From NCBI RefSeq assembly GCF_900166595.1, contig NZ_LT745763.1:884969-948968 (forward strand): a stretch of DNA of 64,000 nucleotides, in the 5' to 3' direction. Both the position numbers and the translations under genes were made by a program. The stretch's first letter is position 1; the number at the start of each line of letters is the position of its first letter. The stretch is from Virgibacillus dokdonensis. Its GTDB lineage: Bacteria; Bacillota; Bacilli; Bacillales; Amphibacillaceae. Below the pieces are notes generated by a model that was given only the letters and a program-made list of their open reading frames with translations, ran no database searches and was not told the DNA's origin. This document shows positions 9,518-28,330 of the stretch, piece after piece.

Positions 9518-9552
9518 ATATAAATAAGAAAAATCAAAAGGGAGTGTATTTA

Positions 9553-10130: not shown

Positions 10131-11414
10131 TTGGATTATCATGTTTTACATCCATTTACATTGATGCCTGATATAACTAATTTAAGCGAGAAGGAAATAA
10201 ATAACAAATTAATAATATCAGAATCTTCAACTAGTTCGTGGATAAAGGATAAGAAAGGGGAGTTTTATTATAATATCAGTAATGCTGCTTTATCTTTAGG
10301 TTCTGGACAGGAAGATATAATAAATGCTGCTATTAAACAGTATAAAAAACTGTCAACAGGTACTTTATTTGCGCAAGGACATGATAAGGCTAATGAATTA
10401 GCAAGAAAATTAGTAGAAAAAATGCCAGATTATAATATGGCATTTTATTCAATTGATGGTACAGGAACAACTGAAACGGCTTTAAAAATTGCTAGGCAAC
10501 ATTTTTTATCCAAAGGTAAAACAAGAAAGAAAAAATATATTAGTCTAAATGGGGGATTTCATGGGAATAGCTATGGAAGTTTATCAGTAACAAATGTTGG
10601 ACTCCATGATCTATTTGGGCCAATCCTTAAAGGGATGCTTTCAGTTAACCCGCCAGTTTTTAATAGTGACGAGCAAGATTTAGAAATCGAGAAAAAGTGT
10701 AAAGAGTTACAAGACTTAATAGAGGATGAGAATTCAGAAACAATTGCAGCTATGATAATAGAACCGATTCAAGGTGTATCAGGTGTTCAAGTAATTCCAA
10801 AAAAATATCTACAAAAAGTTAGGGAACTAACAAAAAAACACGATATTTTATTAATTGTTGATGAAGTAACAACTGGTATTGGTAGGTTAGGGGATTGGAG
10901 CGCGAATGAATTAATGAATATTAATGGGGATATCGTAACGTTCTCAAAGAGTTTAACATCTGGATATTTTCCATTAGGAGTTACAATGATGAAACAAAAT
11001 ATTGCTGAGTCTTTTCTAGGTGAAAAAAATGGTGGCTTTCCTCATGGGTCTACTTTAAGTGGACATCCAGTAGGATGTGCAATAGGATTAGCAGTTATCA
11101 ATAAGATTGATGAGGAAAATCTGTTAGACAATGTACTCAAATATGAATACATTCTTAAATCAGAGTTGAAAAATAAGTTGGCACAAACTTCAAGTTTTAA
11201 AGAAATTAGAGGAAAAGGGCTAATGATAGGAATTGAGTTTTTTTCTGATAGTACTTTTTCTGAAAAATTTGTAAAGAATCTTTTAAATGAAGGATTATTA
11301 GGAACTTATGGTAATGGTACATTAATTATTTATCCCCCATTTAACTTAACTGAATTAGATGCTGAATTTATTATTGACTCAATTACGAAAGCAGCAATAT
11401 CAGCAAGTAATTGA
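10131..11414 (+). CDS. Class III PLP-dependent aminotransferase, 427 aa
   Basis: Fold-type I aminotransferase of class III (ornithine/omega-amino type). Visible motifs are SIDGTGTTETALKIARQH for phosphate binding, AMIIEPIQGVSGVQVIP, the PLP-ring aspartate in LIVDEVTTGIGRLGDW, and the Schiff-base lysine in TFSKSLTSGYFPLG. PHGSTLSGHPVGCAIG closes the cofactor site. The substrate could be an amino acid, an aldehyde or a pathway ketone. GTG at 10122 opens the frame, but AAAGGAG is only 3 bases before it and 12 before the TTG at 10131, so TTG is preferred. It stands alone between a terminator and IS debris and is the only aminotransferase in the island. Confidence 0.9.
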   Translation: MDYHVLHPFTLMPDITNLSEKEINNKLIISESSTSSWIKDKKGEFYYNISNAALSLGSGQEDIINAAIKQYKKLSTGTLFAQGHDKANELARKLVEKMPDYNMAFYSIDGTGTTETALKIARQHFLSKGKTRKKKYISLNGGFHGNSYGSLSVTNVGLHDLFGPILKGMLSVNPPVFNSDEQDLEIEKKCKELQDLIEDENSETIAAMIIEPIQGVSGVQVIPKKYLQKVRELTKKHDILLIVDEVTTGIGRLGDWSANELMNINGDIVTFSKSLTSGYFPLGVTMMKQNIAESFLGEKNGGFPHGSTLSGHPVGCAIGLAVINKIDEENLLDNVLKYEYILKSELKNKLAQTSSFKEIRGKGLMIGIEFFSDSTFSEKFVKNLLNEGLLGTYGNGTLIIYPPFNLTELDAEFIIDSITKAAISASN

Positions 11415-14294: not shown

Positions 14295-14627
14295 TTAATC
14301 TTCACCAATTATTTCAATATCATTTTCTATAATACTTAAGAAAGTTACCCCTGTTTTAGTTGATACAGTGTGTATTTCTCCTGAACCAGCAGTTAGAAAG
14401 TCTCCTTTTACTAATTTTTTACCATCTACAATCATTTCCCCTTCTAACACATAAGCGTATTCTCGTCCTGGATGATCATGTTTAGGAATATAACCGTTAG
14501 GACCGAAACGTACAATAATAGCTTGTTTATGGGTGGATTCAGTTTTTTCATTCCAAAGAAATCTATATTCCGAGTTTTTGAAACCTCCTTCTTTCCATTC
14601 TGTGTCCTCTTTATGAATAATTGGCAT
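14295..14627 (-). CDS. Small cupin (ChrR-like) protein, 110 aa
   Basis: Single-domain cupin. Motif 1 is YIPKHDHPGREYAYVLEGEM, with the two histidines and the glutamate of the metal site. Motif 2 ends in KGDFLTAGSGEIHTVST, with the last histidine. Length and motifs fit metal-binding cupins such as the ChrR cupin domain or small dioxygenase-like proteins. The ATG follows GGAGG. It is the only minus-strand gene within the island apart from IS genes, and its codon use matches that of the island. The role is unknown: it could be an enzyme acting on the product or unrelated cargo. Confidence 0.85.
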   Translation of the reverse strand: MPIIHKEDTEWKEGGFKNSEYRFLWNEKTESTHKQAIIVRFGPNGYIPKHDHPGREYAYVLEGEMIVDGKKLVKGDFLTAGSGEIHTVSTKTGVTFLSIIENDIEIIGED

Positions 14628-14847
14628 TTATCATATCCTCCAATCTAAATTTTATAAAACAATTTTATAATTATTTCGCCTATTAAACTCGGGTAATATT
14701 GATTTATTTTGACAATTTTATACGAATTATTCAAAAAAATAAAAAAAAGCATAGGATATGTAAATAAAACCCGTAGTCATATTTATATGTAGATTTATAC
14801 TTATTATATAAATAAAAAATCTTAAAATGTGCTTGAGGAGGATGTTT

Positions 14848-15486
14848 ATGGATATTCTGGTTGGTATTCATCAGTATAGTTCCACTACTTATGCTAATGA
14901 TTTAATGCATGAGGACATTCCAGATAACGCTAAAACGAAGAAAATAAGTGATTTTAAAACTCTTCTTATGTACACAAAAGAAAAGGTATACGATTTAATT
15001 GTAATTCTTACTAAGCAAGCCTCTTTACCTTGTAATTGGAATTTAGAAAAAATACATCCAGAATCTCCACCCTCAATTATGATTATAACTAATTTCAATT
15101 GTAATAGTTCAATTCTCATTGAATCTTTTCTACAATCCATTTTTGGTTTTGGATTTATAGAAGAAAAAAACTCAATAGTAAAAGACTCATTGAAGTATAT
15201 ATCTGAGAACTTATGTGAAAGTGAACTATCATTAGAAAAAGTAGCAAGTAAATTTTATTTAAATAAATCTCATTACTCAAGAGTATTTAAAGAGAAAGTA
15301 GGGGTAGGTTTTAAAACTTATGTAATTCAAAAAAGGATTGAGAAGGCTAAAATACTATTACAACATAATTATTCAGTAACAGATGTTTGTTTTACAATTG
15401 GGTATAATGATCTTACACATTTTTCTAGAACATTTAAAAAAATTGTAGGAATTAGTCCGTCAGAATATCGACGTAGAGCCAGATAA
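14848..15486 (+). CDS. AraC-family transcriptional regulator (AraC-2), 212 aa
   Basis: Paralogue of the regulator at 4055, with the same architecture. It has an N-terminal region of about 110 residues of unknown type, then the AraC double helix-turn-helix (LSLEKVASKFYLNKSHYSRV, FKEKVGVGFKTYVIQKRIEK, SVTDVCFTIGYNDLTHFSRT) and the final SPSEYRR. GAGGAGG at 14835-14841 fixes the ATG at 14848; the frame can be opened at 14827 without a site. The ACP gene follows after 30 bases, so this regulator heads the polyketide half of the island. Two paralogous regulators at the heads of two gene sets suggest either a dual activator pair or an old tandem duplication. Confidence 0.92.
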   Translation: MDILVGIHQYSSTTYANDLMHEDIPDNAKTKKISDFKTLLMYTKEKVYDLIVILTKQASLPCNWNLEKIHPESPPSIMIITNFNCNSSILIESFLQSIFGFGFIEEKNSIVKDSLKYISENLCESELSLEKVASKFYLNKSHYSRVFKEKVGVGFKTYVIQKRIEKAKILLQHNYSVTDVCFTIGYNDLTHFSRTFKKIVGISPSEYRRRAR

Positions 15487-15516: not shown

Positions 15517-15750
15517 ATGGTAATGGAAAATAAAAAGAACGCAATCGTTAGTTTAGTACAGGAGTTTGTGGAGTTTCGAATTGAAGAAAGTCATTTTAAT
15601 GAACCTTTTGATAGTTTAGGTGTTGATTCATTGATGATGTTAGAAGTAGCGGTGGATATTGAGAGAGATTTTGACATTCATATTTCTGATGAAGATTTAT
15701 CAGAAATTTCTACTCTATCTGATTTGATAGAGATAATAAATAAAGGATAA
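15517..15750 (+). CDS. Discrete acyl carrier protein, 77 aa
   Basis: Type II acyl carrier protein. The phosphopantetheine serine is Ser38 in FDSLGVDSLMMLEV, followed by the acidic helix III region ISDEDLSEISTLSDLIEII. Length is standard. The ribosome site GGGAGGAAT is good, and a second ATG two codons in is possible. It would carry the growing chain for the ketosynthases at 20694 and 23390. No phosphopantetheinyl transferase lies in the island; the one at 44398 or a genomic AcpS would have to load it. Confidence 0.95.
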   Translation: MVMENKKNAIVSLVQEFVEFRIEESHFNEPFDSLGVDSLMMLEVAVDIERDFDIHISDEDLSEISTLSDLIEIINKG

Positions 15751-15764
15751 ACCTTATATAAATT

Positions 15765-16754
15765 ATGGTAAAAAAACTATTATTTTATAAAATCATTATT
15801 TTGACAATTATATTTTCAATTTTTTATTTTATTTCAAGAGGAGGAAGATTAAAACTTCGCTATTTATTTTTAATTCGATATTGGAAAATACTTTATTCAT
15901 TCTTTTCTGGAGTTGTATTAACTTTGAAAGTAAAAGACATGAATAAACTAAATGTAAAGTTGAATACAAAATTCTCTCCATTTTATAGAGGGTTCGCCTT
16001 TGAAGGAGCTGGTCTTGGAATAGCAATTCTTGCATTTAGTTTGGAGAAAGGAAAAAGCTTTGAAGAAATGACTAAACAGCTCTCTAAAAAGTCAATATAT
16101 CAGTATTATGTAGGATTAGGATGGTTTTTATGGTTTCTATATGGAAGAAAAAAAGGGAAATATGAATTATGGTTAAAACAAATAGATTTAAGACATGGAA
16201 TAATTCTATTTGATGGAGTTGGTTTTAGTTCTTGTTTTAAATTATATAAAAGTAATCCTCAAGTTATCAACAACTTTAAAAACTTTAATAATAATCAACA
16301 AAGGGTTTGTTACCAAGGTTTTGGTAGAAGTTTATGGTTTATTTCAAGATTTGATATCATTTATGTTAATAAAGAAATTGAAAAAGTAGATTTACAGTTT
16401 CAAGAAGATGTTTATAGCGGAGTTGGAATTGCAGTAGCTTATAGTTGGTTTGATAGAATTGAACAAGCTTTTATGCTGTTAGATAAAGTTCCGGAAGAAT
16501 TTAAAGGTCCTTTTTGTCAAGGTATGGCTTTTGGATATGAGGCAAGAAGATTACAAGATGAAGCGCTATGGAATAAGCACATAAAAGCAATAAATAAGTC
16601 GACTAGACAAACAATCTTAAAATGGCTTTTTGTTTTAAAACATACTGAAATAACTGTTGCTAATGAAAAAGAAAAAGATAATTTCTATCTAGAATGGGTA
16701 GATCTTTTAAGAGAAAATATATATATAAAAAGATTCAATAGTAAGAAAAATTGA
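15765..16754 (+). CDS. DUF1702 (UnbL-like) protein, 329 aa
   Basis: The family is recognised from its repeated glycine-aromatic motifs: FYRGFAFEGAGLGIAILAF, YYVGLGWFLWFLYGRKKG, LFDGVGFSSCFKL, CYQGFGRSLWFISRF, YSGVGIAVAYSWF and FCQGMAFGYEARR. These look like six iterations of one repeat unit. An N-terminal hydrophobic segment (residues 3-24) probably anchors it in the membrane. DUF1702 proteins are the UnbL members of enediyne clusters; their biochemical role is not established. It starts 14 bases after the ACP gene and is surely cotranscribed with it. Finding it with the UnbU- and UnbV-like genes downstream makes the assignment firm. Confidence 0.88.
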   Translation: MVKKLLFYKIIILTIIFSIFYFISRGGRLKLRYLFLIRYWKILYSFFSGVVLTLKVKDMNKLNVKLNTKFSPFYRGFAFEGAGLGIAILAFSLEKGKSFEEMTKQLSKKSIYQYYVGLGWFLWFLYGRKKGKYELWLKQIDLRHGIILFDGVGFSSCFKLYKSNPQVINNFKNFNNNQQRVCYQGFGRSLWFISRFDIIYVNKEIEKVDLQFQEDVYSGVGIAVAYSWFDRIEQAFMLLDKVPEEFKGPFCQGMAFGYEARRLQDEALWNKHIKAINKSTRQTILKWLFVLKHTEITVANEKEKDNFYLEWVDLLRENIYIKRFNSKKN

Positions 16755-17236
16755 GATATTGAATGGGAACGTTAGAGTGAGCAGCTGCAGTAAGGAGAGC
16801 TGTGATTATTTTCCTATTATCCAGAGTAAATATCTTGGTCTGCACCATTGAATCTCTAGATTTTTTATTAACTTCTGGATTGATAGATCAATTTATTTGC
16901 ATAAATAGAAAAGTATTGGATATGGAGAAATAGGTATGGTTTAGAATTTCATATTAGTATTAGTGATGTTTAATTTTAATACCTAGTTGAAGTCGTTATT
17001 TGAAGTTTTAAAAAATTGGTAGCTTATAGAGAAAATCTAATTACACTCTATAAGCTTTTTTGCTGATAAGTACCTTAAGAAGAGTAGCGGTATAATGTCA
17101 AGCACTGATAAAAAAACTTGCTGCCTTAGCTTCAATACAGTTAAAAAAGACAATAGAAAACTAAACCCACCCTAATTAGTTTATATTTAATTCCATTTAA
17201 ACTAATTAATAAGTGAAGAGAAAGCGTGATAAAAAT
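16755..17236. other. Gap after the DUF1702 gene
   Basis: No gene was recognised. The only structure seen is the hairpin terminator at 17021-17061. The right end abuts the IS110 relic on the minus strand. Confidence 0.6.
17021..17061 (+). terminator. Terminator downstream of the DUF1702 gene
   Basis: AGCTTATAGAG (17021-17031) pairs with CTCTATAAGCT (17046-17056), followed by TTTTT. It lies about 270 bases after the stop codon. Confidence 0.75.
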
Positions 17237-18458
17237 CTATTTATGATTTTGTGGCATCCCTCCTTCTGGTTGATAAATTTGGTTGTTCTTCAGCAGATAA
17301 AAAATCAACCTCATAAGTTTTCGAGCTGTAAGCGCAAGGGCAAACTCTTTCGGTTCTGCCCGCTTTTTGGCATAGTACTGGGCAAAAACAGGGGCGTGCC
17401 CCCCGAACACTGCTTGCGGCCTCAAAGAGATAGTACTTGAGATAGCGGTTTACCGATTAAATTAGCCGGGTTCGCTTGGCAGTAAAGTCACCGGATTGAT
17501 CCTGATTCCAGGCAATCCCTCCGAATTGAGCCAGCTGCTGCTGTTTTTGAAATTGATGAATGTCTACTTCAGCCAGAATACCGGATGTGAAGATGGGACC
17601 AATGCTAGGAACGGAATCCAACGTTTGTGGAATGGTTTCTAAATGATTCATAATCGCTTTTTTCAGGACTTTTAATTCCTGTTGAATGGTGCGAATCACC
17701 TGAATACTGGAAGCCATCGCCAAGTTTACGGAATCTGCCATGGAATCAGATAGACGGTAAGAAGATCGTGCTGCCTTTTTTAAGGAACGGGCAGCAGCTT
17801 CGGTATTATCAAAACGATTTTTGCCATGGTACATTAGGAAGTCAATGAGCTCGTCCAAAGACACATCAACCACCTCTTCGACAGATGCAAATTCTTCTAT
17901 GACTGCCATGGATGTCGCACCGAGCTTGTTTTTTGAAATTGTCCGGTGATGGTATATTCGCTGAACTTTAAATATAAGTTGGTCAGGAGAAAGTTACTCT
18001 CTTGTGTTAAATCCTGCACCAAGTGATACCGTGCACGTGTAAGCCGTTGTAAAGCCATTTGTGGTTCACTCCACGTATAAGGATGCGGTAAATTGGCTGC
18101 ACGGAGTTTCGCAGCGATATACCGGGCATCCACCCGGTCATTCTTGGGAGCATAGAGAAAATTAGCTTTTTAAATTCTTTGATGAGGCCGGGCTCAATGC
18201 ATAAACCAGTTTATCCGATACGCCAAAATCCAGGTGCTGCCGAAGATAGATTGCCGTGTGTGTCGAGTAACTTCCGGTGTGTTCCAGACCGAATAAAACC
18301 TGTTCAAACCCATGTTTTTTGACGAGTTTGGAGATGAGGTCTTTCAACTCTTGAATTCCGGGACGATTGTTGGTAATAGTAAATGGGCTCAGAGCTCGTT
18401 TCGCTTTGTCCCGGGTTAAGTAACAGACGACGTTATGCACGTCAATTCCGACGAACAA
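17237..18458 (-). pseudogene. IS110-family transposase broken by frameshifts
   Basis: Read on the minus strand, the pieces join into an IS110 protein. They are an N-terminal DEDD part (FVGIDVHNVVCYLTRDKAKR, VLFGLEHTGSYSTHTAIYL), a middle part (NDRVDARYIAAKLRAANLPH), and a C-terminal part (VPSIGPIFTSGILAEVD, LAQFGGIAWNQDQSGDF, RYLKYYLFEAA, then AKKRAEPKEFALALTARKLM). At least three frame changes are needed, near 18160, 17900 and 17430. It is a different subgroup from the IS110 relic at 12766. It separates the ACP/DUF1702 genes from the rest of the polyketide operon. The N-terminal start is uncertain because the frame stays open upstream of the TTG at 18458. Confidence 0.88.
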
Positions 18459-18850
18459 GGAGAAGTCATGGTTTGGTGTAAGGAAATAGCGCCTACGATG
18501 CTGAGGTGCCCCTGGGAAACCTATGAACGACAGCCTTGCGAGCTATTGGAATATACCAGGAGTCAGTCAACGTGTAGGTCTATAACATAGGGCCAGGGCA
18601 ACACTCTTTTTTTGGAAGACACTCAAGTGTTTGCTTGGGGCAACGAGAGGAATTGGAACAATCCCTTGGTAGGAAAGCTACCTATGGCTATTTTCCCAAA
18701 GACAGATCAGCATTGTAAACACTTTTGTTTGAGGGCTACCGCGCTGGTGCTTACTTCTTTCTAATTCGCGGTATACTTGTCTTGGCAAGCATACGCTCAT
18801 TACGAAGCTGCGCCCTCCAACAATGAATAAAGTAACTAACTATTATTATT
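18459..18850 (-). other. Noncoding left end of the second IS110 relic
   Basis: About 390 bases upstream of the broken transposase (minus strand) hold no gene. They are clearly less AT-rich than the island and so probably belong to the element, including any bridge-RNA region. No exact tip or target duplication was identified. Confidence 0.45.
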
Positions 18851-18927
18851 TCATTTTTAAGGTACAAGTGAATGCCTAAAATCTATTTATTATTAGGCTT
18901 AAACATAATATACAAGGAGGATTAGTA

Positions 18928-19500
18928 ATGAGAGTTCTTGGTATTATAGGAACAACAACTGGAACAAAAACTAAGCTTACAATGAATTATATAAATAATC
19001 TATTATTAAAGCAGTTTTCAAAATCCAATATAGAGATTATAGATTTAAGTGAGTTAAATATATCGTATAGTGATGGAAGAAATTATATAGATTATGTAGG
19101 AGATACCAGGTATGTTGCAGAATTAATCATGTCTGCAGACATAATTATTATTGGAACTTCTATATTCCAAGCTTCTATACCCGGAGTTTTAAAAAATGTT
19201 TTTGATTTACTACCTTCAAATGCTTTTTATGGAAAAATTGTTGGAACTTATATAACTGCAGGTACTAGTAAACATTTTCTAGTGATTGAACAACAACTAA
19301 AACCTATCTTATCTTTTATGCAAGCTGCAATTGTACCAACTTACGTTTTTATAGAAAATCAAGACTTCTTTAATAATAAAATTATAAGTTCAGATGTATT
19401 AACACGATTAGATAAGATGGTCGAAGAAATTGCTCAGATTATTAAATATCAATATGCTTTCGACGATGATAATAAAAAAAGGGTTGTACACAAGGATTAG
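18928..19500 (+). CDS. NAD(P)H-dependent FMN reductase, 190 aa
   Basis: Flavodoxin-like fold of the NADPH_dep_FMN_red family. The N-terminal phosphate loop is LGIIGTTTGTKTKLTM, and the central motif GTSIFQASIPGVLKNVFDLLP matches the conserved TPxYxGSxPGxLKNxxD pattern (written here in two parts: GTSIFQASIPG and VLKNVFDLLP). A C-terminal alpha-beta unit follows. It would supply reduced flavin to a pathway oxygenase, for example a relative of the FAD enzyme at 6191, or act as a quinone/azo-type reductase. AAGGAGGATT precedes the ATG. A terminator hairpin lies shortly after. Confidence 0.9.
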   Translation: MRVLGIIGTTTGTKTKLTMNYINNLLLKQFSKSNIEIIDLSELNISYSDGRNYIDYVGDTRYVAELIMSADIIIIGTSIFQASIPGVLKNVFDLLPSNAFYGKIVGTYITAGTSKHFLVIEQQLKPILSFMQAAIVPTYVFIENQDFFNNKIISSDVLTRLDKMVEEIAQIIKYQYAFDDDNKKRVVHKD

Positions 19501-19564
19501 ATATGAAAAGGGCTAATTTTGGGGGTTAATTTTTTCCTTGAACCTTAAAGACCAATAAATGATT

Positions 19565-19612
19565 TGCTGGAATATCAGTCTTGAACTGAATCTATTCCAG
19601 CATTTTTATTAT
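19565..19612 (+). terminator. Terminator after the FMN reductase gene
   Basis: TGCTGGAATA (19565-19574) pairs with TATTCCAGCA (19593-19602), followed by TTTTTATTATTTG. The rest of the 19501-19857 gap is AT-rich and must contain the promoter of the next operon; no element could be picked with confidence. Confidence 0.8.
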
Positions 19613-19857
19613 TTGTTTTAGAAGAAAAATTACAAGTTTTAAAATATAAAATGAAAATTAAGTTCTATAATTTTATATCTTCAAAATTCAAAAGCACATA
19701 TAACTGTTGGATTCTCCAATAAATAAAATCAGTCACATATAATCTTTTGATAATTAATTAAAAAAGATTATAAAAACCAACTATAGTAATCAAAAAAAGC
19801 AGAGTTAGTTTTTTAACTAAAGTACATAATTAGGATTAAGAAAGGAAGGAGATAATA

Positions 19858-20682
19858 ATGAGTATTAAGAAAGTAATGATATTTGGAAGTATAATAATAG
19901 CTTTACTAATATTATTTTACTGTATTTGGTTCTTTTTCATCAATATTAAGTATGAATTACCAGAAATTGATTCATCTTTGACAGAAGAAGAATTAGGAAT
20001 TAATTTTAGCGAAGAAATTTCTACCAGTATTAGTAATAATACTGAAAATGAATTAAAACAATTAGTCGAAAGTAGCCCTAAAAATATGAAATATTTAAAT
20101 GATCTTCGTTTGGTAATGAAAGATGAATTGGATGAGTATATTAACTATCTGGAAGAATTAGAAATTAATAATGAGGAAATTCATTTACAAAAAGCGTTAG
20201 CTTACGTAGACAAATTACAAGATCCACAATTAGGAACAGGGAGATTAGGACAGATATCTAATTTATCAATTAATGAATTACAGGAAGTACTAAGTATTAA
20301 TGAAAATAATTGGTTTGCTTACTATGCTAGGGGCCTAAATAATCTATATTGGCCAATTGGGTTAAAAAGAATTGATAATGCTATCCAAGAACTTGCATTC
20401 TGTGTGTCAATTTCAATTGAATATAACCATATTGACAATCCCCTATGGCCAGATGCGTATGTGGCTTATGGTGATGCGTTAATTAAGAAAGGAGAAATTG
20501 AAGAAGGTATTCAAGTCTGGAAAGATGGTTTAAATAGATTTCCAAATCATGAAGAATTGCTGAATAGAGAAAATTTAGATAGTGATCAAGCTTACTCTTT
20601 AGTGAAATCAGAAAGAGGAATAGATTCTTTCCAAAGGCCAAAAGAGCATATTACAGATTTAGGGATACTATGGGGAAATTAG
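19858..20682 (+). CDS. Membrane-anchored TPR-like protein, 274 aa
   Basis: One N-terminal membrane helix (about residues 8-29) with lysines before it, so the bulk faces outside. The outer part is acidic. It ends in TPR-like helical pairs: NWFAYYARGLNNLYWPIGLK with the N-x-x-x-Y-A-R-G pattern, and PDAYVAYGDALIKKGEIEEG leading to WKDGLNRFPNHEELL. A good ribosome site (AAGGAAGGAG) precedes the ATG. It is the first gene of the seven-gene ketosynthase/Unb operon. TPR proteins are frequent partners of VCBS/ASPIC proteins, so it may work with the lipoprotein at 25415. It ends 11 bases before the ketosynthase start. Confidence 0.75.
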   Translation: MSIKKVMIFGSIIIALLILFYCIWFFFINIKYELPEIDSSLTEEELGINFSEEISTSISNNTENELKQLVESSPKNMKYLNDLRLVMKDELDEYINYLEELEINNEEIHLQKALAYVDKLQDPQLGTGRLGQISNLSINELQEVLSINENNWFAYYARGLNNLYWPIGLKRIDNAIQELAFCVSISIEYNHIDNPLWPDAYVAYGDALIKKGEIEEGIQVWKDGLNRFPNHEELLNRENLDSDQAYSLVKSERGIDSFQRPKEHITDLGILWGN

Positions 20683-20693
20683 GAGGAGATGAA

Positions 20694-21851
20694 ATGAGAG
20701 AAATAGCTATATCAGGTCTTGGTTTAATTTCATCAATAGGTACTGATTTGAATAGTAGCTGGAACAATATTTTGGAAGGAGCCAGTGGTGCTGATAAGGT
20801 GAAAAAATTTTCAGAAACCCCTTTTCATAATTATAATGCTTGCGAAATTAAAAAGTTGACATCAATAGTTAGTAAGAATAGCTACATGGGGAGTGCAACG
20901 TCCCTTTTTTTTGAAACAGTGAAACAAGCTTTAGAAGACGCCTCTCTTTCTATAAATAATACAATGAGTGTAGGAATATCTATTGGTACAACTATGGGAG
21001 AGATTGATAGTCTAGAAAATCATTTATTAAATAATTCAAAGTGGAAAGGAAAAGCGGGACCCAATGTAATTGCTGATCAAATATACGAAAAGTTGAATTT
21101 ACAAGGACCTAAATGGACTATAACAAACGCTTGTGCTGCTGGTAATATTGCTATTTCAAGAGCTATGGAAGACATAATAAAAGGAAATGCGGATGTGATG
21201 ATAGCTGGTGGAGTTGATATTCTTTCTTGGGTGGCACTTTCTGGATTTAATAGTTTAAAAGCGTTGAGTCCGGACCAATGTAGACCCTTTGATAAGAACA
21301 GAAGAGGACTATTATTAGGAGAAGGTTCCGGTGTTGTGATTTTAGAAAGTAAAGAACATTTAAGAAAAAGGGCTAAAAAAAGAAAGGCTCTTCTTGTAGG
21401 ATATGGATTAAGTTCAGATGCTCATCATATTACTCAACCAGATCCAGAGGGAGATGGGGCATCATTGGCAATGAAAAAAGCTATTGAGATGGGGAATATA
21501 TCTAAAGAGGATATTGGTTATATCAGTGCACATGGTACTGGTACAGTAGCAAATGATTTAATGGAAAATGTAGCAATTAAAAAAGTTTTTGGAACTAATA
21601 ATCCTTTAGTAAGCTCAATAAAGGGACATATTGGTCATACTTTAGGAGCTGCAAGTGCTATCGAGGCGATTATATCAGTGAAAATCTTGAATACAGGAAT
21701 GATTCCTCATACACTAAATTTAAAAAAAGTTGATCCAAATATAAATTTAAATTTAGTAAAAGGGGCTCCATTTAAAAAAAGTATAGACTATGTTTTGTCG
21801 AATTCTTATGCCTTTGGAGGCGTAAATTCCTCATTATTAATTAGGAGGTAA
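20694..21851 (+). CDS. Discrete beta-ketoacyl synthase (KS-1, FabF/KS-alpha type), 385 aa
   Basis: A thiolase-fold ketosynthase with a complete catalytic triad: Cys147 in WTITNACAAGNIAISRAM, the first His in YISAHGTGTVANDL, and the second His in SSIKGHIGHTLGAASAIEAI. SNSYAFGGVNSSLLI is the usual C-terminal motif. It would condense malonyl units on the ACP at 15517. The ATG at 20694 follows AGGAGGAGATG; the frame can be opened at 20670 but without a site. Length is slightly short for the family (about 410). It is followed by the RnfD-like gene after 5 bases. Confidence 0.93.
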   Translation: MREIAISGLGLISSIGTDLNSSWNNILEGASGADKVKKFSETPFHNYNACEIKKLTSIVSKNSYMGSATSLFFETVKQALEDASLSINNTMSVGISIGTTMGEIDSLENHLLNNSKWKGKAGPNVIADQIYEKLNLQGPKWTITNACAAGNIAISRAMEDIIKGNADVMIAGGVDILSWVALSGFNSLKALSPDQCRPFDKNRRGLLLGEGSGVVILESKEHLRKRAKKRKALLVGYGLSSDAHHITQPDPEGDGASLAMKKAIEMGNISKEDIGYISAHGTGTVANDLMENVAIKKVFGTNNPLVSSIKGHIGHTLGAASAIEAIISVKILNTGMIPHTLNLKKVDPNINLNLVKGAPFKKSIDYVLSNSYAFGGVNSSLLIRR

Positions 21852-21856
21852 AGTAA

Positions 21857-22678
21857 GTGACAAAATTTAAAGCAGTTATAGACTGGGGAGATTATAAAAT
21901 TGACCCCAGATATTGCATAATATTATTTTTAGGTGCTTTTATTATTGCTGGACAAACATATTTAAACTTTCAACAAGGAATTCCTCAAGTTATTGCATCA
22001 ATTGTTACAACAGTAACCACAGAGATTATTTTAGGGAAACTCATTTTGAAAAAATGGATATATCCATTAAGTCCTTTAATAACAGGTATGGGATTAAGTT
22101 TATTATTAAGTTCTAATTTAATTTGGCCATATATATTAGCAGGATTTCTTTCAATTGTTTTTAAATATGTACTAAGGTTTAAGGGGAGTCATATATTTAA
22201 TCCTAATAATATAGCAGTTGTTTTCATGATTACCCTTCTACCATCGTATGTGTTAATTTCACCTAAACAGTGGTCAAATGGTTATTTGATGATGTTTATT
22301 ATTCTTATATTAGGAATAATCGTAGTAATTATAGCTAAAAGATTAGCGATCACTCTAACATTTATAATTTCTTTCATGATTATTGGTATTTTAAGGCACT
22401 TTATTTTTGGAGCACCTTTATTGGTAGCATTAGGACCAATTATGGGAGCATCAATGCAATTGTTCTTTTTCTTCATGGTGACAGATCCAAAAACTACTCC
22501 AAATTCTAGAAAAGATCAAATATATTTTGGAATAGTTGTGGCAATTTTAGATGGAGTGCTTCGTTTATATAGAATACCTTTTGCTCCTTTCTATGCTTTA
22601 TTTTTAACTAGCATTGTGTTCATGATTCCATATCGTTATTTGATTAATCGAAGAGTGTTAAAAGAAGGAGAGATATAA
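21857..22678 (+). CDS. RnfD-like / UnbU-like integral membrane protein, 273 aa
   Basis: Eight to nine hydrophobic helices with the RnfD/NqrB family landmarks: GSHIFNPNNIAVVFMITLLP (the F-N-P helix start), and the cytoplasmic motif FFMVTDPKTTPNSRKDQIYF near the C-terminus. RnfD/NqrB proteins are flavin-binding subunits of ion-translocating oxidoreductases. UnbU of enediyne clusters belongs to the same superfamily and has no partner Rnf subunits, as here. GTG start with GGAGGTAAAG upstream. It lies between two ketosynthase genes with gaps of 5 and 2 bases, so it is tied to the pathway rather than to respiration. Confidence 0.85.
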   Translation: MTKFKAVIDWGDYKIDPRYCIILFLGAFIIAGQTYLNFQQGIPQVIASIVTTVTTEIILGKLILKKWIYPLSPLITGMGLSLLLSSNLIWPYILAGFLSIVFKYVLRFKGSHIFNPNNIAVVFMITLLPSYVLISPKQWSNGYLMMFIILILGIIVVIIAKRLAITLTFIISFMIIGILRHFIFGAPLLVALGPIMGASMQLFFFFMVTDPKTTPNSRKDQIYFGIVVAILDGVLRLYRIPFAPFYALFLTSIVFMIPYRYLINRRVLKEGEI

Positions 22679-22680
22679 TT

Positions 22681-23376
22681 ATGCAACCAATAACTATAAG
22701 TGGATATGATGTGATGACACCTTATGGTGATGTTAAATCATTACCAGGTAAGACCGTTTATGATTTTATAGATTCTAATAAAATCTATATCACACCTAAC
22801 TCTATCGTTGAAATAGCTAAATTAAGAAGAGTACCCAAGGAAATTAGATTACCATGTATTTCAATGTATAAAGCATTGAAAAAGGCAAAGGTAAAGATTG
22901 AAGAAACCGAAAAAAATCCCAATATTAGTATTGTAGTAGGATCTTCTTTTTCAAACTTACAAGCAATTTCAGAACTTTATTTAGACGCTGAAAAATACGG
23001 ACATGATAAGTTGAATCCCAAATTTTTCCCTAATACTGTTCTAAATTCAATCAGTGGGTATGCTTCAATTGTTTTGAATTGTGTTGGAGCAAACATTACT
23101 ATTTCACAGGGGCGTGAATCGGGGAAGAAAGCATTAGAATTTGCAACAGATTTACTTGAAGGGAACAAAACTCACAAAGTTGTATTATGTGAAGTGAATT
23201 TGAACGTTCCTGATGCTTTTCAAGATGTTATAGATAGTGATATTAAACCTGAAAGTATAAGCAGTTTGGTATTAGAATTGGGTGGGAATGGAGACAAATT
23301 AGCCTCTCTAACTAGTCAACAATTTTATACATTGCTTGATTTAATTTATCAATTAAAAACAATAAATAGTATATAG
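22681..23376 (+). CDS. Stand-alone N-terminal ketosynthase-like domain, 231 aa, no catalytic cysteine
   Basis: Matches only the first half of a ketosynthase (ketoacyl-synt_2 type). Landmarks are ISGYDVMTPYGDV at the start, NISIVVGSSFSNLQAISELY, and FPNTVLNSISGYASIVLNCV, then ITISQGRESGKKALEFA where the nucleophile Cys would be. Here the position reads Q-G-R-E, so it cannot condense. The C-terminal half with both histidines is absent, and the next gene begins 14 bases later in another frame with its own start. Such a protein could play the chain-length-factor role by pairing with KS-1 or KS-2. Similar truncated KS-like proteins occur in aryl-polyene-type loci. It is not a simple frameshift relic, because the next gene is a full ketosynthase. 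Confidence 0.82.
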   Translation: MQPITISGYDVMTPYGDVKSLPGKTVYDFIDSNKIYITPNSIVEIAKLRRVPKEIRLPCISMYKALKKAKVKIEETEKNPNISIVVGSSFSNLQAISELYLDAEKYGHDKLNPKFFPNTVLNSISGYASIVLNCVGANITISQGRESGKKALEFATDLLEGNKTHKVVLCEVNLNVPDAFQDVIDSDIKPESISSLVLELGGNGDKLASLTSQQFYTLLDLIYQLKTINSI

Positions 23377-23389
23377 AGTGGTGATTTAT

Positions 23390-24634
23390 ATGAAAACGTT
23401 AATTACTGGGTCAAGTATATTATGTTCAGCTGGAATCAGTATGGAGGAAGCTTGGTCATCTTTTTTAAATCAAAAAAATACTATGAGTAGGCGCTATTAT
23501 AATTTAGGAACAGAATACACTCAAAATTTTCCTGTATACCCAATTAGAGAATTAGATTTATCGACTTGGTTTAGTAGTAAAGAATTAAATTTAATAAAGA
23601 AAATTCCTTTTTTTAACGACAAAGACTTTCAATTCTTATTAGTAGCAATTAAACAATTAATAATTGAATCAAATTTAGAAGTTAGCAATAATAACAGAAT
23701 TAGTTTAGTTATTGCTCATGAAAATCCAGGTGTGAATAATTTAACTGATTCATTACTGAAAGAAGATTTTTATAATAAGAATCTAAAAGAATCATTTCAA
23801 AATTATCAAGAGGATTTTTTCCATATACAAACCTTTCCGCATATATTTTATTTAGCAAAAATTTTTGGGTTTAAAGGTCAAAATTATATTGTTAATAATG
23901 CCTGTGCATCTGGAAGTTACGGATTAGATTTAGCTAATTCATTAATTAAAAGCAAAAAATCTGATATAGCTATTGTAGTTTCATCTGATTATGCACATCC
24001 AACTGAATTTCTTTGGTTGAATAAAAAAGGTTTTTGTTCTAATAAAGAGACAATATTGCCATTTTCACTTTCGGGAGATGGAACCGTTCTAGGTGATGGT
24101 GCATCAGCAATTTTGTTAGAGTCAGAAGAACACGCTTTTAATCGAACAGCTAATGTAAAGTGTGAATACGTAGGGGGGGCTTTCCAGCAAGAGACATGGA
24201 GAATGACATTGCCAAATGTAAAGGAAAATTCTTATTCACAAGTTATTGATCAAGTTATTAAGGATTCTAAGGTAAATACTATTGATTTAATTATCCCCCA
24301 TGGAACGGGTAATTACCTTTGGGATAAATATGAGATGAAGGAAATTATAAAATCTTTCAGTGGAAAACAACAACCATTTATAAGTGGATTTAAACAGTAT
24401 ATAGGGCATACTTTGGGAGCAAGCAGTTTATTAGAAATTACAATTTTAATAGAATGTTTGTGTAAAAATATTATTTTACCAATTCATTATAAAGTAAGAG
24501 ATGAGAGTTCTCCAAAATTCATGACAAAGAATATTATAAAGCAAAAAGTTAGACAAGAAAATTTAAAAACAGTAATGAAAACAGTTTCTGCGTATGGAGG
24601 TTTTACATCAGCTTCCATTTTCAAAAAAGTTTAG
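23390..24634 (+). CDS. Second discrete beta-ketoacyl synthase (KS-2), 414 aa
   Basis: Complete but diverged ketosynthase: Cys172 in YIVNNACASGSYGLDLANSL, His in LIIPHGTGNYLWDKYEM, His in GFKQYIGHTLGASSLLEI, and VSAYGGFTSASIF at the C-terminus. The fold is full length. Because the Cys-His-His triad is present it is a real condensing enzyme rather than a chain-length factor. It may initiate, or may handle a different chain length. The ATG at 23390 is chosen over GTGs at 23378 and 23381 because those leave no ribosome site; the site itself is weak (GAGTGGTG). It is followed by the ketoreductase after 12 bases. Confidence 0.9.
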   Translation: MKTLITGSSILCSAGISMEEAWSSFLNQKNTMSRRYYNLGTEYTQNFPVYPIRELDLSTWFSSKELNLIKKIPFFNDKDFQFLLVAIKQLIIESNLEVSNNNRISLVIAHENPGVNNLTDSLLKEDFYNKNLKESFQNYQEDFFHIQTFPHIFYLAKIFGFKGQNYIVNNACASGSYGLDLANSLIKSKKSDIAIVVSSDYAHPTEFLWLNKKGFCSNKETILPFSLSGDGTVLGDGASAILLESEEHAFNRTANVKCEYVGGAFQQETWRMTLPNVKENSYSQVIDQVIKDSKVNTIDLIIPHGTGNYLWDKYEMKEIIKSFSGKQQPFISGFKQYIGHTLGASSLLEITILIECLCKNIILPIHYKVRDESSPKFMTKNIIKQKVRQENLKTVMKTVSAYGGFTSASIFKKV

Positions 24635-24646
24635 GAGGAGGTTATA

Positions 24647-25390
24647 ATGAATGATTTTTCATTTGATTTTAAAGGTAAAACAGCATTGGTTACTGGAGGA
24701 ACAAGAGGTATAGGTGAGCAATTAGTATATGATTTGGTTGAATCAGGATGTAATGTGATATTCACTTATTCGCAAAGCAAAAGTAAAGCAATAGAAATGG
24801 TTCTAGAATTAACCAAAACTACAGCAGTATCTATTAGATGTTTAAAAGTTGATTTTACGAAAAATACAGAAATTGACGAGCTAATGATTTTTTTGAAAAG
24901 TATAGATAAAATTGATTTTCTTGTTAATAATGTTGGGGTTATACATGACAAACCTCTCATGTATCTTTCTAATTCAGATTGGAATAATGTTCTTGCTGTA
25001 AATTTAACGATTCCATTTATTCTAAGTAGAGAGTTAAGTAGAAAATTAGCAGTTAATAAAGGCGCCATTGTCAATTTATCATCTATTTCTGGAGTAATGG
25101 GTAAAGAAGGTCAATCTAATTATGCAGCTTCAAAAGCTGGAATAATTGGTTTTACCAAAAGCATTAGCAAAGAGTTGGGACCGATGGGTGTACGAGTAAA
25201 TTCAGTAGCTCCGGGATATATTTTAACTGAGATGACAGAAGATAAAATTAAAGATCGTGTAATTAAAGAAATTTCTCTTAGGAGAATAGGACATACTCAT
25301 GAAATATCATCTATTATAATGTTTTTGTTATCCAGTGCATCGTCTTATATAACAGGCAAAGTAATAGTCCCTGATGGGGGAATTATTTAA
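24647..25390 (+). CDS. 3-oxoacyl-ACP reductase (FabG-type SDR), 247 aa
   Basis: Classical short-chain dehydrogenase: cofactor motif LVTGGTRGIGEQ, NNVGV after strand 4, catalytic Ser in IVNLSSISGVMG, Tyr and Lys in SNYAASKAGIIGF, and the PG motif in VNSVAPGYILTEM. It ends in ASSYITGKVIVPDGG, which is typical of FabG. It would reduce the beta-keto group made by KS-1/KS-2 on the ACP. AGGAGGTTATA precedes the ATG. With one ketoreductase and no recognised dehydratase, enoyl reductase or malonyltransferase in the island, those steps would come from primary metabolism or from unrecognised genes. Confidence 0.94.
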   Translation: MNDFSFDFKGKTALVTGGTRGIGEQLVYDLVESGCNVIFTYSQSKSKAIEMVLELTKTTAVSIRCLKVDFTKNTEIDELMIFLKSIDKIDFLVNNVGVIHDKPLMYLSNSDWNNVLAVNLTIPFILSRELSRKLAVNKGAIVNLSSISGVMGKEGQSNYAASKAGIIGFTKSISKELGPMGVRVNSVAPGYILTEMTEDKIKDRVIKEISLRRIGHTHEISSIIMFLLSSASSYITGKVIVPDGGII

Positions 25391-25414
25391 GCTAGTAAAG
25401 GAGAGTGAGTAAGC

Positions 25415-27178
25415 ATGAAATTTAGATATATATTGATTGTTTTAGTAGTATTATGTGTTGGCTGCAGTAGTAATGAAAAATCGAACACATTAGGAAAATC
25501 TGATACAAAAAATAAGCACGATATCTCTTTTAAATATGCAGATATAACAGAAGAAGCAGGTGTTAAATTTCAGCACACAAAACCTCAGTTTGATTCTAAG
25601 GTAGATAATATTATGCCATGGATAGCTTCAATTGGGTCATCTGTTGCTGTTGTTGATTACAACCAAGATGGGTATTATGATTTATATTTTACTAATTCTG
25701 AAATTGGAACTGAGAATGCTTTATTTGAAAATGATGGGAATGGTAGTTTTAAAAAGGTTGAGAGTGAAATAAATAATATTAATCAAGATGGTATTTCTAC
25801 TACTGCTCTATTTTTTGATTATGATAATGATGGATTTCCAGATTTATTTGTTGGTAGCTGGGGACATAGTAAGTTATTTAAAAACAATGGAGATGGATCA
25901 TTTACCGATGTAACCGAGGAATCAGGTATTAATGAATTTGGGTATCCAGCTAAAGCTATTGCTATAGATTATAATCAAGATGGTTATTTGGATATATATG
26001 TTGGCAACTATTTCAGAAGTGAAAATAACTTATGGGATCTTGATACAACAAAAATAATGCATGATGATTTTGAGACAGCTTTGAATGGCGGAGATAATTA
26101 TCTTTATAGAAATAATGGAGATGGTACATTCACTGAAGTAGCTAATGAAATGAGTGTAGATGATACTGGTTGGACTTTAGCTACGGGGTCAGTTGATTTA
26201 AATGGTGATGGGTATCCAGATATATATAATGCTAATGACTTTGGTCCGGACTCAATATATATTAATCAGGAAGGGGAAGGATTTGAAAAAATTACTCAAT
26301 CAAATAACTTTGGAAATGATACTCACAAAGGAATGAATGTTGATTTTGCCGATATTTTTCATGAAGGGGAATATGGAATATATGTAAGTAATGTTAGCAA
26401 AGAGTCTTATATAATTGAAGGAAATGATTTTTGGTATCCCAAAGAAAATGGAGAGTATGAAAACATAGCAGATAAGCTTAATATTAACTATGCTGGTTTT
26501 TCATGGGGAGCGAAATTTTTTGATGTAGACAATTCTGGAGAATTTAGTTTAATAGTCACAAATGGATTCATAACTGGTGAGAGTAGTGAAGATTATTGGT
26601 TTGATTTAGGAACTCTTGTAACTACGCCAGGAAATGTAGTAGAGGATACTAAAAATTGGCCTACTATTGGAGATAAAGATTTGTCAGGAGATGAAAGCAA
26701 ATTTTTATTTTTAAATCAAGGAGATAATAAAGAATTTATAGATGTTGCAGAGGAAGCAGGGATTAATTTTACTTATGATGGTAGAGGAGTATCCCCAATA
26801 GATATAGACAACTCAGGAGAATTAGATTTGGTTTTCGCTAATCAAAATGCTCCAGCAAAGGTTTATAAAAATGAAATTAGTAATGATAATAATTGGATAA
26901 ATATTGAACTCGAAGGTAGTTTTCCAAGTAACATAGATGCAATTGGAGCAAAAGTAACTATCACTACTGAAAATAAAGAAACTCTAATTGAAAAGGATGG
27001 TGGAAATGGTTTTGGAGGACAAAGTGATCCACGTATTCATTTTGGAACAGGGTCTGAAGAAATAATTAATGAGATAAAAATAGAATGGCCAAGCGGTAGA
27101 ACACAATCATTAGAAGATGTAAAAACAAATCAATTTCTTTATATTAAAGAAGACTCTTCTCTCACTTTAAAGAATTAA
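25415..27178 (+). CDS. VCBS/FG-GAP repeat lipoprotein with C-terminal ASPIC domain (UnbV-like), 587 aa
   Basis: The N-terminus is a lipoprotein signal (MKFRYILIVLVVLCVGCSS, with the lipidated Cys in the VGC box), so the protein is anchored outside. The body has repeats with EF-like calcium loops: DYNQDGYYDLYF, DYDNDGFPDLFV, DYNQDGYLDIYV, DLNGDGYPDIYN, DVDNSGEFSLIV and DIDNSGELDLVF, which fit a beta-propeller. The C-terminal 80 residues match ASPIC/UnbV: NWINIELEG, AIGAKVTITT, GNGFGGQSDPRIHFGTG, and IKIEWPSGRTQSL. UnbV proteins are conserved in enediyne clusters; their function is unknown. It is the last gene of the operon, 24 bases after the ketoreductase. Confidence 0.93.
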   Translation: MKFRYILIVLVVLCVGCSSNEKSNTLGKSDTKNKHDISFKYADITEEAGVKFQHTKPQFDSKVDNIMPWIASIGSSVAVVDYNQDGYYDLYFTNSEIGTENALFENDGNGSFKKVESEINNINQDGISTTALFFDYDNDGFPDLFVGSWGHSKLFKNNGDGSFTDVTEESGINEFGYPAKAIAIDYNQDGYLDIYVGNYFRSENNLWDLDTTKIMHDDFETALNGGDNYLYRNNGDGTFTEVANEMSVDDTGWTLATGSVDLNGDGYPDIYNANDFGPDSIYINQEGEGFEKITQSNNFGNDTHKGMNVDFADIFHEGEYGIYVSNVSKESYIIEGNDFWYPKENGEYENIADKLNINYAGFSWGAKFFDVDNSGEFSLIVTNGFITGESSEDYWFDLGTLVTTPGNVVEDTKNWPTIGDKDLSGDESKFLFLNQGDNKEFIDVAEEAGINFTYDGRGVSPIDIDNSGELDLVFANQNAPAKVYKNEISNDNNWINIELEGSFPSNIDAIGAKVTITTENKETLIEKDGGNGFGGQSDPRIHFGTGSEEIINEIKIEWPSGRTQSLEDVKTNQFLYIKEDSSLTLKN

Positions 27179-27295: not shown

Positions 27296-28330
27296 GTGGC
27301 AGAAAATACTCTCTTTTCACAAGAATACCATCAAGCATATAAATATGCATCATACTATACAGGAAAAAAGATAATGAAGATTTTCAATCAATTGGGTTTA
27401 TTTACTAAAACAAATGATTGGATTACTATTAACGAAGTATTAAATAGAATAAATTGTGATTATTCTTTTGTGCCCAGTGTTAAGTGGGCATTAGAATTCG
27501 TAGTTCAAGAAGGTTTTATTAGAAAAAATAAAATAGAATACTCGTTGATTAACAATAAGACATCTATTAAAAAACCTACAAATTTTAATTTAAAGGTATC
27601 TCTAAATACAATAGATTTTATTAGCAAGAACTGGTTAGATGTTGTGAGAGGAAATATTTCTCCATTACATTTACTTTTCAGAAATAATAATGGTGAAATC
27701 TGGAGAACATATTTTGGGCAAAGTAATTCTTTATATAAAGTTCATAATGAATGGATAGCAAATTATCTCTCTGGACAGAAACTGGCAAGCAATATGACTA
27801 TTTTAGAGCTGGGTGCTGGTTATGGTTCTGGGACAAGAGAAGCTATTAATAAAATATTAGATAAAAAAATAAACTATCTTGCTTCTGATTTAAGTAATGC
27901 TATGTGTAAATTTATCAAAGATAAAACTTCGTATGATTATCTAGATACTTTAATTGTTAATTTTGATAAAGATATAGCTCTGCAAGTTAATAATCGAGAG
28001 TTTGATTACATTTTAGCTATAAATGCTTTGCATTGTTCTAAAGATATTTTAGCTACTTTGAATAGCATTAAAAAATCTTTGAAAAAAGGTGGGTCACTTA
28101 TTTTATCAGAATGTATAAGGGACTTTCGTTCACCATTAATGCATCAAGAGTTTATTTTTAATTTATTACCAGGGTACACTCAAAAACGAAATAATGAATA
28201 CTTTATTCAAGGTTTTTATTATGAGGATGATTGGATTAATGTTCTAAAAGATGCTGGATTTATAGATATTAATATTGATTTGAATTCCGGCCCCAAAAAA
28301 CTAGGAGCTATTATTAAGGGGACTATATAA
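27296..28330 (+). CDS. SAM-dependent methyltransferase with N-terminal helical domain, 344 aa
   Basis: The N-terminal 150 residues resemble the helical/winged dimerisation part of O-methyltransferases (HQAYKYASYYTGKKIMKIFN, FVPSVKWALEFVVQEGFIRK). The catalytic Rossmann part starts at ILELGAGYGSGTREAI (motif I), then SDLSNAMCKFIKD, YILAINALHCSKDILATL and KKSLKKGGSLILSE. The last three blocks are close to methyltransferase domains embedded in polyketide synthases. It is a likely C- or O-methylating tailoring enzyme. GTG start, with AAGGAAGTG about 12 bases upstream. It is the last island gene before the repeat R copy 3. Confidence 0.87.
   Translation: MAENTLFSQEYHQAYKYASYYTGKKIMKIFNQLGLFTKTNDWITINEVLNRINCDYSFVPSVKWALEFVVQEGFIRKNKIEYSLINNKTSIKKPTNFNLKVSLNTIDFISKNWLDVVRGNISPLHLLFRNNNGEIWRTYFGQSNSLYKVHNEWIANYLSGQKLASNMTILELGAGYGSGTREAINKILDKKINYLASDLSNAMCKFIKDKTSYDYLDTLIVNFDKDIALQVNNREFDYILAINALHCSKDILATLNSIKKSLKKGGSLILSECIRDFRSPLMHQEFIFNLLPGYTQKRNNEYFIQGFYYEDDWINVLKDAGFIDINIDLNSGPKKLGAIIKGTI

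Follow-up and report, generated by a model that had tools for sequence, protein, structure and literature searches.

Homologues of the enediyne proteins E3, E4 and E5 beside a putative dissociated type II polyketide synthase in a conserved Bacillota gene cluster

In a 64-kb stretch of the genome of the spore-forming bacterium Virgibacillus dokdonensis (the window), we found genes for a DUF1702 protein, an RnfD-like membrane protein and an UnbV protein, which sequence comparison identifies as homologues of three proteins encoded in the C-1027 enediyne cluster, SgcE3, SgcE5 and SgcE4 respectively. These three proteins, hereafter the trio, are encoded with an acyl carrier protein (ACP), two discrete ketosynthases (KS1 and KS2), a half ketosynthase (half KS) and a ketoreductase (KR), and the arrangement is a conserved operon of Bacillota. 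On balance, we favour the reading that this conserved cluster, rearranged in the window by insertion elements, carries a dissociated type II polyketide synthase (PKS) that replaces PksE and E10 and would feed the same membrane-associated E3/E4/E5 step. A five-gene enediyne cassette is named in the accessible text of PMC5181780, and that of PMC11069151 calls E3, E4, E5, E and E10 indispensable for the enediyne skeleton and describes the exact roles of E3, E4 and E5 as uncertain as of 2024. PksE yields a polyene, and the steps onward to the enediyne core are mostly unknown according to the accessible part of PMC8725005.

Results

The DUF1702 protein (15765) showed 26% identity to SgcE3 (E 2.5e-17) and the RnfD-like protein (21857) 27% to SgcE5 (E 1.5e-21), and UnbV (25415) matched SgcE4 with 27% identity over 605 aa (E 8.7e-54). 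An initial annotation, made from the sequence alone, had assigned these proteins to the DUF1702, RnfD-like and VCBS/ASPIC families and their neighbours to the ACP, KS, half-KS and KR families, and a Pfam profile search confirmed these assignments; the genes that it noted at 15517..27178 do share one direction of transcription, all lying on the + strand. The AlphaFold2 model of the DUF1702 protein was all-alpha (pLDDT 92.1), and its glycine-rich turns are conserved. By a simple hydropathy window, an N-terminal membrane segment was detected on DUF1702 in 17 of 26 Bacillota sequences versus 4 of 66 others, and on a TPR-like protein of the same cluster in 20 of 26. A regular expression for a lipobox matched UnbV in 19/26 Bacillota sequences versus 1/36 others, the window UnbV itself lying outside the pattern. 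This topology hints at an envelope site for DUF1702, the TPR-like protein and UnbV. The TPR-like protein of the window (19858) had been called membrane-anchored and TPR-like: a hydrophobic stretch at its N-terminus agrees with the first term, and the second fits but could not be made stronger, the TPR_11 match scoring 23.6 bits against a Pfam cut-off of 26.8. In the RnfD-like proteins, the NP.N and DP..TP motifs are kept in 57-58 of 59 aligned sequences. SGAT, the flavinylation motif of RnfD/NqrB electron-transport subunits, which E. coli RsxD carries at 276, was present in none of 61 RnfD-like sequences, a difference between the window type and the canonical subunit. Because SGAT is missing from all 61, the RnfD-like protein is unlikely to be a canonical flavinylated RnfD or a copy of the Rnf electron path. 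The envelope redox handling, export or storage that had first been suggested for the trio was not demonstrated; the topology gives a hint of the envelope.

A DUF1702 alignment search yielded 141 loci, and the analysis covers the best 80 of these 141; the locus search used two peptide patterns from a Bacillota-heavy alignment, and shares among the loci are biased towards the query. Besides the window, these 80 included 25 Bacillota loci, from Paenibacillus, Brevibacillus, Chengkuizengella, Fictibacillus, Longirhabdus, Virgibacillus, Oceanobacillus and uncultured Paenibacillaceae. Genes for an AraC-family regulator, the TPR-like protein, KS1, half KS, KR, ACP, DUF1702 and UnbV were each found in 25/25 of them, and KS2 in 24/25, there being no room between half KS and KR in L016. 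RnfD was encoded within the 20-kb locus in 18/25; for the other seven, six genomes were searched (L023 was not among them), and PF03116 proteins were encoded elsewhere in all six. In Paenibacillus tyrfis, where 80 kb was read, the core is preceded by two RnfD genes at distances of 38 and 53 kb, and all of them look like parts of one long cluster. The DUF1702 proteins of the other Bacillota loci are 33-43% identical to that of the window, some of these loci being almost duplicates of one another. Among the less constant members, the aminotransferase c21 occurred in 5 loci and the AMP-binding enzyme c12 in 10. This neighbourhood survey showed the trio recurring with discrete KS and without PksE, and no description of this conserved Bacillota pathway, first suspected to be undescribed, was found in the open-licence literature, which does not prove its novelty (subscription papers lay largely outside that search). 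The family is patchy: it was present in 1 of 398 sampled Bacillota genomes (V. dokdonensis itself) and in 4 of 159 genomes of the taxonomic family, V. dokdonensis included. One of these four has two stops and falls below the cut-off, and the remaining two, judged by their coordinates, appear to be those of L025 and L029. No member was found in the seven Virgibacillus congeners listed.

Catalytic motifs were present in 26/26 aligned KS1 and 25/25 aligned KS2 sequences, the attachment-site DS in 26/26 ACPs and YxxxK in 26/26 KRs. The half KS has the fold of KS and chain-length factor (CLF) proteins with the C-terminal KS domain absent, and is 231 aa long in the window versus 260-333 aa in 25 relatives. 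Its catalytic column, defined by alignment to FabF C163, has no Cys in any of 26 aligned sequences, and we infer that it pairs with KS1. In PDB 9s5h, a solved KS pair, chain B was the best sequence match of KS1 and chain C that of the half KS. Against NCBIfam, KS1 scored 340 bits with FabF and 256 bits with the AmcF model, below its cut-off of 325, and KS2 scored 104.5 bits with the latter; the half KS matched no Amc model there, the presence of an AmcG model in NCBIfam being unchecked. Two hot-dog dehydratase-like proteins, c18 and c19, were both encoded within 20 kb in 6/25 Bacillota relatives. The c19 protein is FabA-like, and c18, unnamed by Pfam, is related to it by profile comparison (probability 93, E 3e-7). 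Judged by their sequences, KS1, the CLF-like half KS, KS2, KR and ACP, with these hot-dog proteins of the relatives, look like a chain builder. The window shares with highly reducing type II PKSs the Cys-His-His KS, a Cys-less CLF-like partner, KR and ACP; unlike the ishigamide KS-CLF (6kxd) and the aryl polyene ApeO-ApeC (6qsp), its partner has no C-terminal KS domain, DUF1702, RnfD-like and UnbV are added to the cluster, and a cluster dehydratase was not found in the window.

PksE was searched for with a 1912-aa query in 24 Bacillota genomes, that of V. dokdonensis and 23 others (those of L007 and L023 not included). No PksE was found in them, none of the matches listed passing about residue 890; the best, with 378 bits in the L008 genome, covered residues 2-881 in a 1336-aa frame. 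Five positive controls were recovered: L051, L049 and L078 gave PksE at full length, and L028 and L080 gave it as two pieces. For the V. dokdonensis genome, 11 KS-like matches were listed, none of them PksE-like: three in the cluster, a frame of 417 aa that we take to be FabF, the type I synthases 45102 and 54428 of the window, and five weak ones. The initial claim that no PksE occurs here can thus be extended from the window to its genome and 23 other Bacillota genomes, and the suggestion of a trio that is not specific to PksE is borne out by conserved Bacillota trio loci with discrete KS and no PksE found in the 24 genomes. An E10-like thioesterase was found in neither the window nor the 25 Bacillota loci (the search covered the loci and not the rest of the genomes), and in 25/55 non-Bacillota loci.

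A tree of 81 DUF1702 proteins (all trees were of a quick kind, with SH-aLRT support only) has two deep branches. Clade A (SH-aLRT 100) holds 31/31 discrete-KS loci, that is, 26 from Bacillota including the window, Chloracidobacterium L030 and four from Planctomycetota. Clade B holds 30/31 PksE loci, where PksE denotes a KS frame of more than 800 aa in the locus, some being cut by contig or locus ends, together with six loci that have the trio and an E10-like thioesterase and no KS nearby; 13 of the 81 rows, of 'unclear' KS architecture, were left out of this comparison. SgcE2 and SgcE3 were placed outside clade A. Compared with the C-1027 cassette of Streptomyces globisporus (L103), the window likewise unites E3, E4 and E5 homologues, an AraC regulator and chain-building enzymes in one cluster; it differs in having discrete KS, a CLF-like half KS, KS2, KR and ACP instead of PksE and E10, a DUF1702 protein on the other deep branch, and far diverged UnbV and UnbU (RnfD-like) proteins. 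The four Planctomycetota loci contain DUF1702 and two KS, with an ACP between the KS in three; no UnbV or RnfD was found near them, three of the four lying on contigs of 5-13 kb. In the clade-A genomes of L030, L032 and L034, none of the matches listed went past residue 886 of PksE. A partial match in L035 (residues 98-464, 45%, at a contig end, in a 1990-aa frame) stops at 464 and was not counted as PksE.

Three actinomycetes, Lentzea (L028/L091-L093), Plantactinospora (L098-L100) and Jidongwangia (L027/L101-L102), also fall inside clade A beside Bacillota (support 90, and 84 with Sgc proteins added), each genome having a single DUF1702 match, of clade A. Monophyly of the discrete-KS loci was not adopted: the approximately unbiased (AU) test did not reject it (p 0.852), which proves no clade, and the free tree nests the three actinomycetes within. 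Like the window, their PksE clusters have a clade-A DUF1702, the 173-aa protein u173, the flavin (FAD) enzyme and AraC, and u173, the FAD enzyme and DUF1702 are consecutive in all three; Lentzea further shares the methyltransferase MTa. In contrast to the window, PksE builds the chain and an E10-like protein is present. PksE is of full length in Jidongwangia (1502 bits, with one in-frame TGA) and Plantactinospora (1477 bits) and in two pieces in Lentzea, where an MTa (c9-family) homologue lies beside it (best match 45%) and the stretch also holds AraC, UnbV, an E10-like protein and a c14-like protein; the Lentzea RnfD-like protein was included in the UnbU tree. Outside Bacillota, u173 was found only in these three loci (3/55 non-Bacillota loci), and the FAD family scored 321-337 bits in them and 210-215 bits in two more non-Bacillota loci. 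Most simply, one and the same tailoring set, its clade-A DUF1702 taking the E3 role, would work with PksE in the actinomycetes and with a type II PKS in the Bacillota.

Other arrangements of these families were seen. Chloracidobacterium L030:5078-20628 contains an ACP, five discrete KS, KR, an ABC transporter, clade-A DUF1702, UnbV and RnfD, so that the trio accompanies discrete KS in a second phylum; two of its five KS also score with the half-KS profile. Pirellula-type metagenome-assembled genomes (L033, L036, L042, L044, L056 and L057) have DUF1702-UnbV-RnfD and a protein of about 300 aa with an E10-like motif, which in L042 has a thioesterase domain by Pfam, and no KS nearby; four of these six genomes, which are incomplete assemblies, contained no KS frame above 469 aa. 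Loci with up to six DUF1702 copies (L047, L067 and L075) occur in Ktedonobacterales, Herpetosiphon and Streptomyces africanus; in the latter two the copies neighbour a KS protein of about 1900 aa, and the locus has no UnbV.

In the window, insertion elements have rearranged the cluster. Transposase-like open reading frames (ORFs), presumably of several kinds, interrupt the window at 1-2100, 11474-14046, 17457-18458, 29861-32101, 36448-36804 and 52937-54124; those at 17457-18458, which we take to be IS110-type, lie on the - strand and separate ACP-DUF1702 from the remaining core. All core frames are open and their catalytic residues intact. The unbroken form is seen in Virgibacillus L025, where the core is followed by the aminotransferase, a methyltransferase, cupin, c18, a second methyltransferase, FabA-like c19, u173, the FAD enzyme and the PDZ protein. 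With the exception of c18 and c19, each of these accessory genes has an orthologue in the window; they lie at 4.7-11.4, 14.3 and 27.3 kb. The cluster is wider than the initially annotated 15517..27178, with accessory orthologues at 4010-11414 and 14295 (-) and MTb at 27296-28330 (Table 1). ORFs were called mechanically, and GC-rich loci required a GC3 criterion. The DUF1702 frame of L089, a same-family relative, contains two TAA stops, and the cluster seems to decay in places. A separate hybrid region of PKS and nonribosomal peptide synthetase type occupies window positions 44398-64000 and runs on towards the window end. It encodes a phosphopantetheinyl transferase-like protein of 228 aa, a KS/condensation/adenylation protein of 2466 aa with an internal methyltransferase, a KS-KR-ACP protein of 1288 aa and an acyltransferase-like protein of 414 aa, the domains being assigned by eye except for the KS matches.

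Table 1 Genes of the cluster and its surroundings in the V. dokdonensis window
Feature	Position	Strand	Evidence
AraC-family regulator 1	4010..4687	+	BLASTP against AraC of Bacillota cluster loci, 40.6% to L025
Methyltransferase MTa (c9)	4738..5493	+	PF13649 2.1e-15; 56% identity to L025; matches in 12 Bacillota loci
173-aa protein u173 (c54)	5612..6133	+	without Pfam family; 60% to L025
FAD-dependent oxidoreductase (c22)	6191..7375	+	PF01494 2e-16; 42.5% to L025
SRPBCC-like + PDZ protein (c14)	7393..8256	+	PF13180 6.2e-7; 62% to L025; PDZ alone is a Pfam match, SRPBCC assigned by eye
Major facilitator superfamily (MFS) transporter	8318..9517	+	PF07690 1.1e-31
VOC/glyoxalase-fold protein	9514..9903	+	PF00903 7.5e-9; relative in one locus, L013, 30%
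Class III aminotransferase (c21)	10122..11414	+	PF00202 7.4e-90; 43-44% to L009/L025
Cupin (c10)	14295..14627	-	PF12973 1.3e-11; 61% to L025; matches in 12 Bacillota loci
AraC-family regulator 2	14827..15486	+	PF12833 7.9e-23; AraC in 25/25 Bacillota loci
ACP	15517..15750	+	PF00550 2.6e-13
DUF1702 protein (E3/UnbL type, clade A)	15765..16754	+	PF08012 1.5e-27, 96.7 bits against cut-off 25
Transposase-like ORFs, outside pathway	17457..18458	-	ORF list
Membrane-anchored TPR-like protein	19858..20682	+	TPR matches below Pfam cut-offs; orthologue in 25/25 Bacillota loci
KS1, FabF type, intact Cys-His-His	20670..21851	+	PF00109 1e-36, PF02801 9e-32
RnfD/NqrB-family membrane protein (E5/UnbU type)	21857..22678	+	PF03116 3.5e-12
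Half KS, CLF-like, without active-site Cys	22681..23376	+	N-domain only, PF00109 1.6e-6
KS2, intact Cys-His-His	23378..24634	+	PF00109 4.4e-17, PF02801 7e-14
KR, FabG type	24647..25390	+	PF13561 7.6e-52
FG-GAP + UnbV_ASPIC protein (E4/UnbV type)	25415..27178	+	PF13517 (FG-GAP_3) 3.1e-35, PF07593 (UnbV_ASPIC) 5.4e-21
Methyltransferase MTb (c13)	27296..28330	+	PF08242 9.5e-13; 44% to L009; matches in 9 Bacillota loci

Discussion

In the mechanism that we propose, KS1 and the half KS would extend a chain on ACP, with KS2 as a second condensing enzyme, and KR and dehydratases would leave a linear polyunsaturated acyl chain; the dehydratases would be cluster-borne in six relatives and perhaps supplied by a housekeeping FabZ-like protein in V. 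dokdonensis. DUF1702, RnfD-like and UnbV would be gathered at the membrane with the TPR-like protein and would perform the same conversion as E3, E4 and E5 on the PksE product, after which the FAD enzyme, methyltransferases and aminotransferase may decorate the product and the MFS protein may export it. If this conversion is shared between both synthases, the step would be defined by the substrate chain and not by the synthase. An enediyne core as the product of the Bacillota cluster is unproven. The earlier suggestion that the trio serves a wider class of polyene-like chains is supported in part, by an enzyme set that looks like a chain builder and by tailoring genes shared with three PksE actinomycetes.

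Several observations weigh against the replacement of PksE and E10 by a type II PKS. The DUF1702 model gave no clear PDB match and no solved relative was found, and seven of the 25 Bacillota loci lack RnfD within 20 kb. In the UnbV and UnbU trees, the Bacillota proteins fall into single clades (99 and 96) at a great distance from every other sequence, whereas the three actinomycetes and L030 have UnbV and UnbU proteins of the PksE type (UnbV was read in all three actinomycetes, UnbU in two); path lengths between Bacillota and other UnbV/UnbU proteins are 5-10 changes per site and look saturated. The DUF1702 tree and the UnbV/UnbU trees conflict in where they place the three actinomycetes and L030. 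Because the Bacillota UnbV and UnbU are far from the PksE type and the trees disagree, the trio was neither inherited nor moved as one block; to judge from these sequences the clusters are mosaics. In Plantactinospora, PksE, RnfD, UnbV and the E10-like protein lie about 17 kb from the DUF1702 module on the same contig, and in Jidongwangia the PksE part is on a different contig from that module. Finally, when the V. dokdonensis genome was searched with one L025 query each, c18 gave no match and c19 a single one, weak and partial (35% over 66 residues), which may be a housekeeping FabZ; single queries are weak evidence of absence.

Since the window cluster is split by insertion elements and neither c18 nor c19 was found by tblastn in the window, the copy may be decaying, which would add to these points, or it may lean on FabZ. 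It is possible, though we doubt it, that the copy is a dead remnant and that the pathway works only in relatives such as Virgibacillus L025: the transposase-like ORFs inside the core, the missing dehydratase genes and the two stops in the DUF1702 frame of a same-family relative are consistent with this, whereas the open frames and intact catalytic residues of the window core argue for a working copy.

A different role for the trio is that of an envelope module for electron supply, export, retention or self-protection, without core chemistry and open to any reactive polyene-like chain, beside a type II cluster that makes an aryl-polyene-like lipid. The polytopic RnfD-like protein, the lipobox and membrane-segment counts in UnbV, DUF1702 and the TPR-like protein, and the resemblance of KS, CLF, KR, ACP and two hot-dog proteins to highly reducing type II systems all fit this explanation. 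It is nevertheless rather unlikely, because the cassette is called indispensable for the enediyne skeleton in the accessible text cited above (PMC11069151), the 61 RnfD-like sequences do not have the SGAT of E. coli RsxD, and the tailoring genes common to PksE-bearing actinomycetes are more specific than a general module requires. Still less probable is an AmcG-like role of the half KS as a cyclization factor (CYF), with a small carbocyclic amino acid related to cispentacin or coronafacic acid as the product. A shrunken, Cys-less KS partner without functional motifs, ACP, KS, hot-dog proteins, c21 and c12 recall the cispentacin AmcF-AmcG (KS-CYF) set, as far as it is described in the accessible part of PMC10698177, and KS1 reaches 256 bits with the AmcF model. 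However, that score is below the cut-off of 325 and KS1 fits FabF better; KR (25/25) and KS2 (24/25) belong to the Bacillota core and lie outside the amc set as described there, and so do the E3/E4/E5 homologues, the same description making no link to the trio. In addition, no AMP-binding enzyme was found beside the window core; in the window, c12 queries match only an adenylation-like stretch at 62.7-64.0 kb (~25%). An accidental neighbourhood, in which DUF1702, RnfD-like and UnbV genes of unrelated pathways lie beside fatty acid genes, would suit the reshuffling by insertion elements and the patchy distribution and is hardly credible, because the same set recurs in 25/25 other Bacillota loci of several genera, unless by one recent transfer, and their DUF1702 proteins are 33-43% identical to that of the window.

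Beyond the replacement of PksE and E10, we raise tentatively, as a bolder idea that is less probable than not being so, that E3, E4 and E5 are the real enediyne-type core machinery to which PKSs are interchangeable suppliers. The supplier would be a type II PKS in Bacillota, in Chloracidobacterium and perhaps in part of the Planctomycetota, and enediyne-like or other strained polyene-derived products would arise with no enediyne synthase involved. YqaJ exonuclease-like proteins were found in the P. tyrfis region and in 10/25 Bacillota loci, of which 8/25 have S24/LexA-like repressors (for each family, two members were identified directly and the others assigned by clustering). YqaJ lies near the RnfD-like gene or AraC together with S24/LexA-like genes in L002, L003, L005, L006, L008, L011, L012 and L014, and near either gene also in L010, L029 and L082-L083. 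Such neighbours would suit a DNA-damaging product, but they may be phage residue; if the PKSs are interchangeable suppliers, they would be the DNA-damage companions of a genotoxic product.

The same three families beside a wholly different, separable chain builder suggest that they work in Bacillota, or once worked there. Comparing the parts common to both systems (DUF1702, UnbU, UnbV, u173 and the FAD enzyme) would distinguish trio chemistry from PksE chemistry, and a clade-A DUF1702 with discrete KS offers a search handle for a family of uncharacterised clusters. The Bacillota cluster may thus serve as a small, dissectable system and a new setting for the function of the trio.

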